From positions 62,001 to 126,000 of the forward strand of contig JACRLX010000023.1 in the NCBI GenBank assembly GCA_016235165.1: a stretch of 64,000 nucleotides of DNA, given 5' to 3'. Position 1 is the first letter of the stretch. Every line of letters begins with the position of its first letter. The notes below the pieces were generated by a model. It had not been told where the DNA came from. It saw only the letters and a program-made list of their open reading frames with translations, and ran no database searches. This document shows, in pieces, positions 38,056 to 42,112 of this stretch. The DNA comes from Rhodocyclales bacterium (GTDB taxonomy: Bacteria > Pseudomonadota > Gammaproteobacteria > Burkholderiales > Rhodocyclaceae). The position numbers and the translations under genes were made by a program.

Positions 38056-38085
38056 TTCGACATCGCGATTCGCAGCGGCTACAAT
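38056..38085 (+). promoter_or_regulatory. Promoter of the split tRNA-Gly gene
   Basis: TTCGAC at 38056-38061 and TACAAT at 38080-38085, spaced 18 bp, a good sigma-70-type promoter. It would start transcription near 38092, four bases before the mature tRNA 5' end. Confidence 0.6.
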
Positions 38086-38523
38086 CCGCTCCCACGCGGG
38101 CGTCGTATAACGGCATTACCTGAGCTTCCCAAGCGTGCGACACGTCGCATAGGTAGCTAGCCTACTCGGGCGCTTTATTACCGAGAGAAAATAGCATTAG
38201 CAGAGGTGAAGGGGGCAACTCCTCTCACTTCATTAAAGAGTGCGGTTCAGGGCAACCTGGGCTTCACCCTATGTGAAAGCTGTACAAGTAATTGTCCAGC
38301 GGTCTCGCAAGAGGCTGACTGAACCGGGGGTTCAGCCCTCTGTAGTCTAGGAGCGGTGCGTCACTGGTAACGGTGGGGTGCTAAGCGCTCTGACAATGTA
38401 GCCACCTTTCGGGGTACGCCGTATCCCGTGAGGGGTCGCGGCGTGATTTCGGCAGTTGCATCCGAATGAGGCGCTAGGCTGAGTTGGTTGGTTAACGCAA
38501 GTGAACCGTTGATAAACGTCGTA

Positions 38524-38529
38524 AAGCTT
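38524..38529 (+). other. Probable EBS2 of the intron
   Basis: AAGCTT can pair with GAGCTT in the tRNA 5' exon (38122-38127), five Watson-Crick pairs and one G-U. IBS2 so defined is one base upstream of IBS1, the expected layout. Confidence 0.5.
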
Positions 38530-38594
38530 GACTGAGCCAAAAGCAACTTGTTTCATCGGGCTCTGCCAAAAGGCATGTGATCGGTTGTTCGCTT

Positions 38595-38600
38595 GCTTGG
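38595..38600 (+). other. EBS1 of the intron
   Basis: GCTTGG in the loop of a GTTCGC/GCGAAC hairpin (38587-38607). It is fully complementary to CCAAGC, the last six bases of the 5' exon (38129-38134), which is IBS1. EBS1 in a terminal loop of domain I is the standard arrangement. Confidence 0.78.
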
Positions 38601-38933
38601 TGCGAACACGCTGACATGAGATCACCGGCGAAATGACGGAACCTTCCCAACTCTGTTACTTGTATGGAACGTGGTAAGCCCAACGCGGCGTCCGGCCAGT
38701 ATGGCGGACAAGGGTGACCGTAAGGTTATCTGCTGCCGTAGTGGGTAGAGGATGATGGAAAAAGCGAATGCTGTCCTGTAATGGGGCGGATAGGGGATGA
38801 AACGATTGCCCTGACGCGAAAGCGTGCAGACTTCCATCTGGTGATCTATCGCAAGATAGGTCTGTTAATCGCACCCGGCGGGGATGATGTAATATTCCCG
38901 CAAGGGAGTGTTGCGTCTTCCTTTCGGGGACGG

Positions 38934-39007
38934 GCGGGTGTAGTTCAATGGTAGAACTTCTGCTTCCCAAGCAGATAGCGTGGGTTCGATTCCCATCACC
39001 CGCTCCA
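38934..39007 (+). tRNA. Intron-borne complete tRNA-Gly(CCC)
   Basis: Acceptor GCGGGTG/CACCCGC, all seven pairs; D stem GTTC/GAAC; anticodon stem TCTGC/GCAGA with loop TTCCCAA (anticodon CCC); T stem GTGGG/CCCAT; discriminator T and encoded CCA. It is 74 nt, with no defect that I can see. It sits inside the intron, 17 bases before the maturase start, probably in domain IV. Its body and anticodon stem differ from the interrupted host tRNA, so it is not a simple duplicate. Confidence 0.9.
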
Positions 39008-39024
39008 TTCAACCGGAGGTTGAT

Positions 39025-40695
39025 ATGGACGCAATGCAGTTCAATTGTGATGTCGCCTCCACTGCATGGCAATCTTGGCACGATGTTTCATGGGCCGAGG
39101 CTTGTCAGGTAGTTGCGAGGTTACAGGCACGTATTGCGAAGGCAGTAAAAGCAGGGGAATGGCGGAAGGTTCGCAACCTGCAGAGACTCCTGACCAAATC
39201 CAGCAGCGCGAAAGCGCTGGCAGTACGGAGGGTCACGGAGAATCAAGGCCGGAAAACTCCAGGGGTGGATAAGCAAACCTGGGGCACGCCGGACGAGAAA
39301 TGGCAGGCGGTTGTCGGTCTCGGCAGCAAGAGATACAGGCCCTTGCCACTGCGTCGCATCTACATACCGAAAGCAAATGGTGACAAGCGCCCTCTGGGCA
39401 TTCCAACCATGCGTGATCGGGCCATGCAAGCGCTGCATCTTTTGGCGCTTGATCCTGTCGCCGAAACGACTGGAGATGCTCACTCCTACGGCTTCCGTCG
39501 TGAGCGCTCGACGGCCGATGCCATCGAACAGGTACGCAATGTACTTGGTCGAAAAGCGTCACCGAAATGGGTGCTGGAGGGGGATATCAAAGGCTGTTTC
39601 GACAACATCAGTCACGACTGGCTGGTTGCCAATGTCTGCATGGACAAAGGCATCCTTCGGAAATGGCTGAAGGCAGGATTTATCGAAATGGGAAGGCTTT
39701 TCCCTACGAACGCTGGCACGCCACAGGGAGGCATCATTTCCCCGGTGTTGGCAAACATCGCGCTGGACGGCCTGCAACGTGAGCTTGAAACACTGTTTCA
39801 CACAGTGCGACAGGCGCGCGCGGCAAAGGTCAATCTGGTGCGCTATGCGGATGACTTCGTGATCACCGGCAGCTCGAAAGAACTGCTCGAAAACGAGGTC
39901 AGGCCTCTGGTGGAGAAATTCCTGGCTGTCAGAGGACTTGCGCTCTCGGAGAAGAAGACCAAAATCACGCATGTGACGGAGGGCTTCGACTTTCTGGGCT
40001 GGAATGTCCGGTATTTCAAACGAATGCTGCTCACGCGGCCGTCGAAGAAAAATACCAAAGCGTTCCTCGACAAGATTCGCGCCGCGTTAGGTGGGCTGAA
40101 GTCGGCCGCACAGGCTGAGGTGATAGAAAAACTCACCCCGGTTATTCGGGGGTGGGCCAACTACCATCGAAGCCAAATGGCCACGCTCACATTTTCGAAG
40201 TGCGATCATCAAATCTGGCAAGCGTTGTGGCGTTGGGCGTGTCGTCGTCACCCGAACAAGGGGAAGCGATGGATCAAACAGCGTTATTTCGTACGCCTCA
40301 AAGGTCGCGATTGGCGATTTTCGGAAAAGGACAAGCTGCTGCCCGTTTTGCGTGGGTACCGGAAACGGCCCCACGTGAAGATCAAGGGCGAAGCAAATCC
40401 CTACGACCCGATGTATGACGAGTATTTCTCCAGGCGGCTTGCCCGCAAAATGGATGCGACGCTCGAGGGTCGCCGGAAGCTACGTTGGCTCTGGTGGTGG
40501 CAGGAAGGTCTCTGTCCCATCTGCGAGCAGAAGATCACGCGAGATACTGGGTGGCATCTGCACCACATAATCAAACGGTCGCAACGTGGTTCGGACAAGC
40601 TCACCAATCTGGTGCTGCTGCATCCGAATTGTCATATGCAACATCATTCAACGGAGAAATCCGGCTCTGCCGGTGTCAGCATGTACAAGTGCTGA
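39025..40695 (+). CDS. ltrA: Group II intron reverse transcriptase/maturase with HNH endonuclease
   Basis: A 556-residue intron-encoded protein from an ATG with GGAGG upstream. RT blocks include RPLGIPTMRDRAMQ, EGDIKGCFDNISH, GTPQGGIISPVLANI and VRYADDFVI (YADD catalytic box). A maturase domain X follows (VIRGWANYHR), then a C-terminal HNH nuclease (CPICEQ, HLHHI, NLVLLHPNCHMQHH). It should promote splicing and retrohoming. HNH-bearing maturases of this length fit the bacterial/chloroplast-like lineage. No frameshift or premature stop, so the intron is probably active or was until recently. Confidence 0.93.
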   Translation: MDAMQFNCDVASTAWQSWHDVSWAEACQVVARLQARIAKAVKAGEWRKVRNLQRLLTKSSSAKALAVRRVTENQGRKTPGVDKQTWGTPDEKWQAVVGLGSKRYRPLPLRRIYIPKANGDKRPLGIPTMRDRAMQALHLLALDPVAETTGDAHSYGFRRERSTADAIEQVRNVLGRKASPKWVLEGDIKGCFDNISHDWLVANVCMDKGILRKWLKAGFIEMGRLFPTNAGTPQGGIISPVLANIALDGLQRELETLFHTVRQARAAKVNLVRYADDFVITGSSKELLENEVRPLVEKFLAVRGLALSEKKTKITHVTEGFDFLGWNVRYFKRMLLTRPSKKNTKAFLDKIRAALGGLKSAAQAEVIEKLTPVIRGWANYHRSQMATLTFSKCDHQIWQALWRWACRRHPNKGKRWIKQRYFVRLKGRDWRFSEKDKLLPVLRGYRKRPHVKIKGEANPYDPMYDEYFSRRLARKMDATLEGRRKLRWLWWWQEGLCPICEQKITRDTGWHLHHIIKRSQRGSDKLTNLVLLHPNCHMQHHSTEKSGSAGVSMYKC

Positions 40696-40711
40696 TGCTC
40701 GTAGATTGCTT

Positions 40712-40786
40712 GAGCCGTATGCGGGGAAACTTGCACGTACGGTTCTTAGGGGAGGGGATTATCGCGAGATAATCTCCTTACCCTCC
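40712..40786 (+). ncRNA. Intron domains V and VI
   Basis: Domain V occupies 40712-40745: it begins GAGCCGTATGCGG, has a GAAA-type tetraloop region and closes with ACGTACGGTTC. It is 34 nt, as expected. Domain VI follows, with GATTATC-GCGA-GATAATC as its upper stem and a bulged A (40780) as the probable branch point, seven bases from the 3' splice site. Confidence 0.82.
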
Positions 40787-40822
40787 TCATGAAGAGGGTT
40801 CGACTCCCTTCGCCCGCTCCAG

Positions 40823-40856
40823 AAGAAAAAGCCGGCCCTCGGGCCGGCTTTTTCTT
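40823..40856. terminator. Bidirectional terminator after tRNA-Gly
   Basis: AAGAAAAAGCCGGCCC, loop TC, GGGCCGGCTTTTTCTT: a perfect 16-bp inverted repeat, GC core with flanking A and T tracts. It ends the tRNA transcript and also the convergent FecR-domain gene, whose stop is 18 bp away. Confidence 0.9.
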
Positions 40857-40873
40857 GGGCAGCGCGAGGGCGC

Positions 40874-42112
40874 TTACTGCTGCGTCGTCTCGGCCTTGAT
40901 CGCCAGCCACTTGCCGCCACGCTGGACCAGGACGAACTGTTCCAGCGACTCGAAGCGGTAGGGCTTGCCGGACTGCTTGCCCTGCTCGACCACGGCGGAG
41001 CGCAGGCTGATGTTGTCGCAGGCGGCGCTGCCGGCCAGGTCCACCAGGCGCGCGTCGGTCCACACCCGGCGCTGGCGGTAATCCTTGAGGCCCTTGATGG
41101 CGGTGATGGTGCTCTGTGCCAGCTCGTCGCGGGTCAGGTCGACGCTGGCCATCTTGCCGTCCTTCTCCTTGACGTTGGCCTTGACCTTGGCATCCTGGGC
41201 GAACATCGCGATCACGCCCTGGGCATCGCCCTTGGCGATGGCGCCATCGAGCTGGGCCAGCCAGGTCTTGGCGATATCGACCGGCGCGCATTCGGCGGCG
41301 GCACCGGGGGTCTTGCGCTTCTGCTCCAGCAGGCGCTTGGCTTCCTGGTCCGCGTTCTGCGAATAGCGGTCGAGCTCGGTGTCGAACTCGCCCGGCACGT
41401 AGAAGCTGGGCACCTTGTCCAGCAGCACCGGCAGCAGGATGGTCAGCAGCGCGCGATCCTTGGTCTTGGGCGGGTTGCGGGCAAAGCCGACCTGGCCGGG
41501 ATCGATGTCGACCTTGTTTTCGCCCACCTTCAGGGTGGTGCCGCCGCGATTCACCTTGTCATAGGTACCCTCCGGGTTGGAGCTCTGCTTGGCCAGCTCC
41601 GGGGACGGAACGTAGGGCTCGTGGTCGGTGCCGCGGATGCCGATGGTAGCCGACGGGGTGACGACGACATGGCCGCTGCGGTTGGTCTGCCCGATCCAGC
41701 CGCTGATCAGGCGCAGCGAGCCGGTGACCAGGCGCACGGCGAAGCCGTCGCTGGGTTTGTCCTCGGCGGCAAAGCGTTCGGCGACGAACTCGGTGTTGGG
41801 GCGGACTGCCACCACGCCGGCATCATCGGTGCGCAGCACGGCTTCGGCTTCGCCGCCGGCACGCAGGCGCTCGCCGACATAGACGGGATCGCCCTCACGC
41901 AGTTTGCGCACCGGCGCACCGACCTTGCTGGCCGTCACTTCGCCGCGAATGCGCCAGACCATGCCGAATTTGGCGCCCGTCGCGGCGGGCGCCGCTTCGG
42001 CGGCCGGAGCCGCTGCCGCGCTGGCGCTCATCGGGGCGGCAACGAACATGAGACAGAGACCCAGGCTGCCCATCAGGGCGCCGAGGCTGGTTCGATTGAA
42101 TGACAATTTCAT
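40874..42112 (-). CDS. FecR-domain exported protein with NTF2-like C-terminus
   Basis: A 412-residue protein with an N-terminal signal peptide (GALMGSLGLCLMFVAAPMSASA). Residues ~48-165 form a FecR domain (GEVTASKVGAPVRKLREGDPVYVGERLRAGGEAEAVL, then TPSATIGIRGTDHE). The C-terminal ~130 residues (AKTWLAQLDGAIAKGDAQGVIAMFAQDA) resemble the NTF2/SnoaL fold. No membrane segment beyond the signal, so probably periplasmic. Unlike FecR anti-sigma factors no sigma factor lies beside it. Function unknown. Confidence 0.78.
   Translation of the reverse strand: MKLSFNRTSLGALMGSLGLCLMFVAAPMSASAAAAPAAEAAPAATGAKFGMVWRIRGEVTASKVGAPVRKLREGDPVYVGERLRAGGEAEAVLRTDDAGVVAVRPNTEFVAERFAAEDKPSDGFAVRLVTGSLRLISGWIGQTNRSGHVVVTPSATIGIRGTDHEPYVPSPELAKQSSNPEGTYDKVNRGGTTLKVGENKVDIDPGQVGFARNPPKTKDRALLTILLPVLLDKVPSFYVPGEFDTELDRYSQNADQEAKRLLEQKRKTPGAAAECAPVDIAKTWLAQLDGAIAKGDAQGVIAMFAQDAKVKANVKEKDGKMASVDLTRDELAQSTITAIKGLKDYRQRRVWTDARLVDLAGSAACDNISLRSAVVEQGKQSGKPYRFESLEQFVLVQRGGKWLAIKAETTQQ

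Follow-up and report, generated by a model that had tools for sequence, protein, structure and literature searches.

The window analysed here is a 64-kb stretch (64,000 nucleotides) from a Rhodocyclales bacterium in which a tRNA-Gly(CCC) gene, hereafter the host gene, is split by a group II intron between tRNA positions 40 and 41. All features described below lie on the forward strand. The 5' exon of the host gene, up to tRNA position 40, occupies positions 38096 to 38134, and the 3' exon, from position 41 to the encoded CCA, positions 40787 to 40821. The intervening 2652 nt (38135 to 40786), which begin with GTGCG, are identified as the intron by Rfam matches, by comparison of borders among relatives and by an empty site found in a genome of the same genus (L202). 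There, the sequences matching window positions 38077-38134 and 40786-41275 are contiguous and yield an intact tRNA-Gly(CCC) gene, with the same downstream neighbourhood as the split gene of the window. Since this empty site joins both flanks across an intact gene, it fixes the intron borders. A promoter-like site (TCGACA-17-TACAAT, 10 of 12 consensus matches) precedes the split gene at positions 38057 to 38085; as two such sites were found in the stretch against 1.3 expected, it can be regarded as a consensus match only. A terminator-like hairpin 3' of the gene (40825 to 40854) was read from the sequence and is absent from the consensus scan list.

The insertion has the makeup of a group II intron. 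Its domain I core (38324 to 38473) matches Rfam model RF02012 (group-II-D1D4-7; 101.1 bits, E 4.8e-20), and domains V and VI, running to the 3' splice site (40710 to 40786), match RF00029 (Intron_gpII; 70.8 bits, E 6.2e-12), both above the Rfam gathering score. Between them, a reading frame at positions 39025 to 40695, preceded by a ribosome-binding site, GGAGG, read from the sequence at 39015 to 39019, encodes a protein of 556 residues in which Pfam recognises reverse transcriptase, maturase and HNH domains (RVT_1, RVT_N, GIIM and HNH). The exon-binding sites were inferred: EBS1 (GCTTGG, 38595 to 38600) is the perfect complement of the IBS1 CCAAGC, and EBS2 (AAGCTT, 38524 to 38529) was assigned to the IBS2 of the host exon from a comparative pairing table. 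Thus, the sequence establishes a group II intron with a domain I core, domains V and VI, a reverse transcriptase-maturase gene and predicted EBS-IBS pairing, while its splicing and retrohoming activities remain inferences.

The only tRNA that ARAGORN detects in the window lies inside this intron. It is a tRNA-Gly(ccc) at positions 38934 to 39007, with encoded CCA; it matches the Rfam model for tRNA at 73.3 bits (E 3.9e-14) and is separated by a 17-base spacer (39008 to 39024) from the maturase ATG at 39025. A previous reading, made from the sequence alone, had proposed just this, a complete tRNA-Gly(CCC) with CCA 17 bases before the maturase start, and ARAGORN, Rfam and the sequence itself all bear it out. 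Other interpretations of the carried tRNA were considered and rejected. It is not a chance tRNA-like fold, given its score and its recurrence in related introns (46 of 52 loci, below). Nor does the intron sit between two tandem tRNA genes: the tRNA is within the intron, just ahead of the maturase gene, and the two halves of the host gene lie on either side. A duplicate of the host gene can also be excluded for the window, where the two tRNAs differ in the anticodon stem (TGAGC/GCTCA in the host, TCTGC/GCAGA in the carried copy) and at 16 further positions outside it, and where the carried gene is identical to native genes from other families. On this point too the sequence-only reading was right, as far as the window is concerned.

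To place the element among its relatives, genome contigs were scanned for the maturase and the best 80 of 436 relatives were kept. Fifty-two loci (L002-L050, L071, L073 and the window) make up the tRNA-Gly group. The host 5' exon is found ending at the same base in 44 of the 52 and the 3' exon in 51, and the intron begins with GTGCG in 42 of the 44 loci having a 5' exon, the window included; the variants are GCGCG in L009 and GTACG in L047. ARAGORN reports a complete tRNA-Gly(ccc) just upstream of the maturase start in 46 of the 52 loci, and every one of the 46 is the isoacceptor, Gly(CCC), of the gene that is split. In the six loci without a complete call, the gene contains masked bases (L011), the available sequence begins inside the maturase so that the region is absent (L036 and L043), or only the last bases of the carried tRNA remain, adjoining foreign DNA (L027, L035 and L045). 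A quick tree of 90 maturases (93 rows less L036, L043 and L190) sets 53 tRNA-Gly rows on one side of a branch with SH-aLRT support of 98.

The clade spans beta- and gammaproteobacteria and extends down to about 60% maturase identity. Record titles name Rhodocyclaceae, Zoogloeaceae, Azonexaceae, Gallionellaceae, Oxalobacteraceae, Sphaerotilaceae, Methylococcaceae, Lysobacterales, Solimonas and others. A planctomycete bin contains a maturase identical to one in a proteobacterial bin and may have been misbinned. By our count, members occur in 12 of 150 genomes of the family, fragments included; in the order, 2 of 399 genomes carry one at 79% identity or more. Plasmid records matching the maturase at E <= 1e-100 number 1445, of which 1414 are below 60% identity and 31 between 60 and 80%; the 15 listed are at 55-56%, and a plasmid-borne member of the clade is not excluded. 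Some introns contain additional DNA: the intron of L019 has further DNA inserted and measures 4998 nt, and in L045 and L046 the maturase is separated from domain V by added sequence that seems to contain small reading frames. The sequence-only reading had named absence of the tRNA from sister introns, or a recent chance insertion, as findings that would refute it. Relatives at the same base of tRNA-Gly(CCC) carry the same isoacceptor in 46 of 52 loci, which favours the proposal, and the phylogenetic span and maturase divergence of the clade speak against a recent accident.

The nearest relatives by maturase (55-59% identity) are the groEL stop-codon introns of the type known from Azotobacter vinelandii, where an intron has been reported at the 3' end of groEL (PMC4465626). 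They resemble the tRNA-Gly introns in starting with GTGCGAC and in being fixed on one base of one gene, the groEL-type site being occupied by 21 of the 29 relatives outside the clade among the best 80. Their own site, however, is a stop codon, a choice that may itself avoid harm, although this is only an inference; the intron of the window is not there but in tRNA-Gly(CCC). The groEL introns fall on the opposite side of the branch defining the tRNA-Gly clade, and ARAGORN found no tRNA inside any of the 29 outside relatives. A large insertion at the intron 5' end has been described as a feature of the groEL intron lineage (PMC4465626); the distance from splice site to Rfam core match is 189 nt in the window and about 358 nt in the A. 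vinelandii locus, L053. One relative outside the clade, L180 (3228-3692), ends a few bases 5' of a tRNA-Leu(cag) gene, and a second tRNA-Leu(cag) with a similar leader follows 300 bases further on.

The carried tRNAs show the marks of constraint on their structure. In 26 distinct sequences (25 of the 27 distinct carried tRNAs, two of 75 bases being left out, plus L194), 98.4% of 546 stem cells are paired, compared to 86.4% in shuffles; covariation is 0.302 versus 0.090, and 64 cells are changed on both sides versus 21.7. None of 500 shuffles reaches the observed pairing or covariation, a result that kinship among the sequences inflates. Counts of double-change pairs (7) and of further pair types (13) are no higher than in shuffles (244 and 448 of 500, respectively). 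Shifting the partner by 1-3 bases lowers the pairing to 44-54%. The stems are thus under pairing constraint. The anticodon CCC is kept in all distinct carried tRNAs, and all 27 also retain G1-C72, C2-G71, G3-C70 and U73, which we take to be glycine identity elements. The gene survives where the maturase does not: it is intact in L017 and L023, whose maturases have one stop each (possibly assembly errors), in L047 (frameshift) and in L073 (maturase in two pieces). In L192, from the genus of the window, other DNA interrupts the maturase gene about 49 residues in, and the carried tRNA is intact.

The position of the carried tRNA suggested that it might act as a processing signal. According to this explanation, the tRNA is kept since its cutting frees the maturase message, or since it closes a stem hiding the ribosome-binding site, and not for the translation of GGG. 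In its favour, the distance from the end of the tRNA to the maturase start is 14-18 bases in each of the 46 loci, and in a single-sequence fold the ribosome-binding site and start codon pair with bases preceding the tRNA (the stretch that includes the tRNA has z -3.7). Yet any tRNA would do for such a purpose, while all 46 are the very isoacceptor that the insertion splits, and the glycine bases of the acceptor end are preserved. Moreover, the outer stem is absent from the consensus fold of 30 sequences, and the regulatory stem, present in the single fold only, was rejected. We therefore consider a role in processing alone to be unlikely.

To ask what other source of this tRNA the cells possess, 54 genomes that bear the intron, for most of which completeness is not stated, were searched with a pattern matching tRNA-Gly(CCC) genes without interruption. 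Exactly one match was obtained in 40 of 40 genomes of a first set and 13 of 14 of a second, and in 52 of the 54 the single intact tRNA-Gly(CCC) found by the pattern is the carried copy. The exceptions are the Thauera genome of L027, where the match is a host-like copy (L217) about 100 bases past the broken carried tRNA, and G140, which has no match and in which the carried gene borders at its end on foreign DNA. In the genome of the window, Gly-TCC and Gly-GCC genes were found once each among 38 other tRNAs; no other Gly-CCC was seen in a tRNA set that is incomplete (it lacks Asp, for example). In the order as a whole, an intact match is present in 295 of 399 genomes and, by our count, all but four of these have a single copy. 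Since nearly all genomes of the order with a match have one copy only, the target of the intron is usually a single-copy gene. The proposal that the carried tRNA rescues the function disrupted by the insertion is thereby supported, indirectly; its expression, its charging and the need for it are inferred.

If the carried gene is to persist next to an element that targets tRNA-Gly(CCC), its fit to the guide sequences of the intron becomes relevant. Host and carried genes were compared in the 43 of 52 loci having complete host exons and a complete carried tRNA. The anticodon stem is the same in none of the 43. In 37 loci the two genes differ at pair 29-41, the 3' base of which immediately follows the insertion point. 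At base 41, T is found in 40 of the 43 hosts but in only 5 of the 43 carried copies, and six loci show pair 31-39 flipped. Carried and host genes differ by exactly base pair 29-41 in L022, L047 and L050, and by two base pairs only in L048. In these four loci the carried tRNA has the backbone of the host gene, which qualifies, for the clade, the claim that it is no duplicate.

The consequences for recognition were predicted from pairing with the exon-binding bases (43 rows; L048, whose base 41 is changed in the comparison above, was lost from these rows through the search pattern, and L026, without a 3' exon, was further excluded from counts combining three features, leaving 42 loci). In the window, the three bases of EBS2 facing positions 29, 28 and 27 form a pair followed by two wobbles with the host exon, and two mismatches followed by a wobble with the carried tRNA; the first base of the 3' exon is T in the host and A in the carried copy. 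The two EBS2 mismatches and the different first 3' exon base described in the sequence-only reading are thus both confirmed. EBS2 (AAGCNN) pairs with IBS2 in 43 loci, base 29 being paired in 37 of 43 hosts, and its sixth base fits host base 28 in part of the loci. Taken alone, EBS2 pairs better with the host in 31 of 43 loci and with the carried copy in 4, the two being equal in the other 8. For 41 of 42 loci, one or more of the intron's contacts are predicted to be weaker with the carried copy: base 41 is changed in 36, EBS2 pairing is weaker in 30 and IBS1 is changed in 6. The exception is L005, for which no weakening is predicted. A covariation search for an EBS3 partner of host base 41 yielded no qualifying column.

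The departure from the target is not a general property of native tRNA-Gly(CCC) genes. Base 41 is other than T in 23 of 27 distinct carried tRNAs compared to 27 of 293 native genes of the order (Fisher p 2e-17, uncorrected for kinship); this baseline, which records base 41 as T or non-T only, derives from 29 non-T among 295 matches after subtracting two that are intron-borne. Carried copies that keep target bases 39 and 41 do occur (L005, L012, L025 and L037), and in the L027 genome the carried tRNA, though broken, is target-like too. Conversely, the hosts of L007, L049 and L071 have A at position 41, otherwise the resistant state, yet hold the intron; in all of them EBS2 still fits A at position 29. 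These hosts may have changed their stem after insertion, or may have been poor targets. Altogether, predicted pairing, and nothing beyond it, indicates that the carried copy resists targeting by its own intron in most loci, L005 excepted.

The stem sequences also have a history of their own. The carried tRNA of the window is identical over 74 bases to genes in two genomes belonging to other families within the order (L204 and L205), neither of which has a maturase match of this kind, and is one base off a third gene, L185. Likewise, the native gene L186 equals the sequence carried by L022 and L047, and L187 has the same stem. Identity shows that the gene carried by the intron of the window is a tRNA allele that occurs naturally, and its earlier description as recoded has to be corrected in this sense. 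When mapped on the maturase tree, where some forks are open, the carried stem underwent at least 24 changes (15 types in 46 rows) and the host 5' stem at least 16. The carried tRNA behaves as a cassette that has been replaced repeatedly, mostly by non-target alleles.

Such exchange could also be expected of a passenger. In this alternative, the function is provided by the split gene, which splices well, and the carried tRNA is a passenger or a spare dose maintained by recombination with native genes. It can be said in support that host exons, once joined, give well-paired tRNAs (25 distinct), and that the carried genes, with their 24 changes, were exchanged repeatedly and can equal natives of other families. 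Against it, wherever the carried gene is missing among the 52 loci, masking, a contig end or inserted DNA accounts for the absence; the gene is retained in carriers whose 5' splice site is altered (L009 and L047) or whose maturase is broken; and a passenger would have no need to avoid the target sequence. This explanation, too, seems improbable to us.

A third alternative is that ICEclc-like integrative elements dock at the carried tRNA, which would in this way help the intron to spread. ICEclc-type elements have been reported to use 18-bp sites at the 3' end of tRNA-Gly (PMC9960961). In L027, L035, L045 and L190, roughly the final 20 bases of the carried tRNA directly adjoin foreign DNA, and a LysR-family gene is found beside the junction in L045 and L190, as well as in L035 by our reading. 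These loci look like cases in which an ICEclc-type element used the intron-borne tRNA as attachment site. In the L035 and L045 genomes, a whole carried tRNA with the 5' half of the intron is present at the other end of the insert (L207 and L218). However, an attachment sequence of this kind is already available in the host 3' exon, making an extra gene unneeded; only 4 such loci were found; and these insertions separate the two halves of the intron. Docking is accordingly a very unlikely reason for the presence of the tRNA.

The best reading of these data is, in our opinion, that of a natural home-and-rescue retroelement. We regard it as likely, with a probability of roughly 0.73. The insertion site, the carried gene and its conservation, its status as sole copy and its departure from the target at the recognition bases are shown by sequence, while expression, charging and need are inferred. 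As we envisage it, a site-specific mobile group II intron would target the normally single-copy tRNA-Gly(CCC) gene and bring along a complete tRNA-Gly(CCC), placed in the domain IV region just before the maturase gene. The promoter of the host tRNA would transcribe exon, intron and carried tRNA as one unit, from which RNase P and 3' processing would excise the carried tRNA. Natural split introns are broken in domain IV, so removal of the tRNA from this domain need not stop splicing. GGG decoding by glycine tRNA would go on whether or not the split gene is spliced. Finally, the anticodon stem of the carried copy would represent an allele poorly recognised by the exon-binding bases, which would limit both insertion of the intron into its own rescue gene and splicing against that gene.

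How far the cell depends on this supply is less certain, as the evidence that the carried copy replaces the lost function is indirect and rests on the finding that in 52 of 54 genomes the pattern picked up this copy and no other intact gene. Splicing of the split host gene may still yield tRNA: that the joined exons are still well paired means either that splicing may suffice or that the insertions are recent. In addition, tRNA-Gly(TCC) could read GGG by wobble, and since the genome of the window has a Gly(TCC) gene, rescue may not be essential.

The individual parts of this system are of known kinds; the combination is new as far as we have searched. Group I introns in bacterial tRNA genes and group II introns in plastid tRNA genes are self-splicing and rely on splicing; to our knowledge none of them contains a complete tRNA. 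No description of a tRNA inside a bacterial group II intron was found in the openly licensed PMC literature searched, and the relevant passages of a survey of prokaryotic group II introns (PMC8919778) mention tRNA introns only of other kinds. The earlier statement that no such description was known thus met with nothing contrary in that literature. ICEclc and other tRNA-integrating elements also insert in tRNA-Gly, through 18-bp attachment sites (PMC9960961). They leave a whole tRNA, integration itself restoring the 3' end of the same gene, but they carry no second whole gene and make no change against re-insertion. The closest parallel in design is provided by the engineered HomeR home-and-rescue drives, which insert in a needed gene and carry a rescuing copy (PMC7968924). 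The rescue copy in such drives is recoded. HomeR drives are man-made, based on a DNA nuclease and built in animals, whereas the intron is natural and RNA-based, and need of the gene has not been shown for it; the likeness is an analogy of logic.

On a practical level, genome annotation may count an intron-borne tRNA as an ordinary gene. If the home-and-rescue reading is true, the intron would offer a natural example, in a retroelement, of the recoded-rescue design of engineered gene drives; its cargo would be replaceable, with changes that can be followed at the level of single base pairs. A bolder version would hold for the lineage as a whole, and we lean towards it by a small margin: these group II introns would be natural home-and-rescue drives that hit a single-copy tRNA gene, bring a working substitute and repeatedly trade that substitute for poorly recognised alleles, so that resistance alleles of the host become protected cargo. 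In either form, the reading makes it possible to test how a mobile intron lives in a single-copy RNA gene, and how host resistance alleles can become captured by the element they resist.
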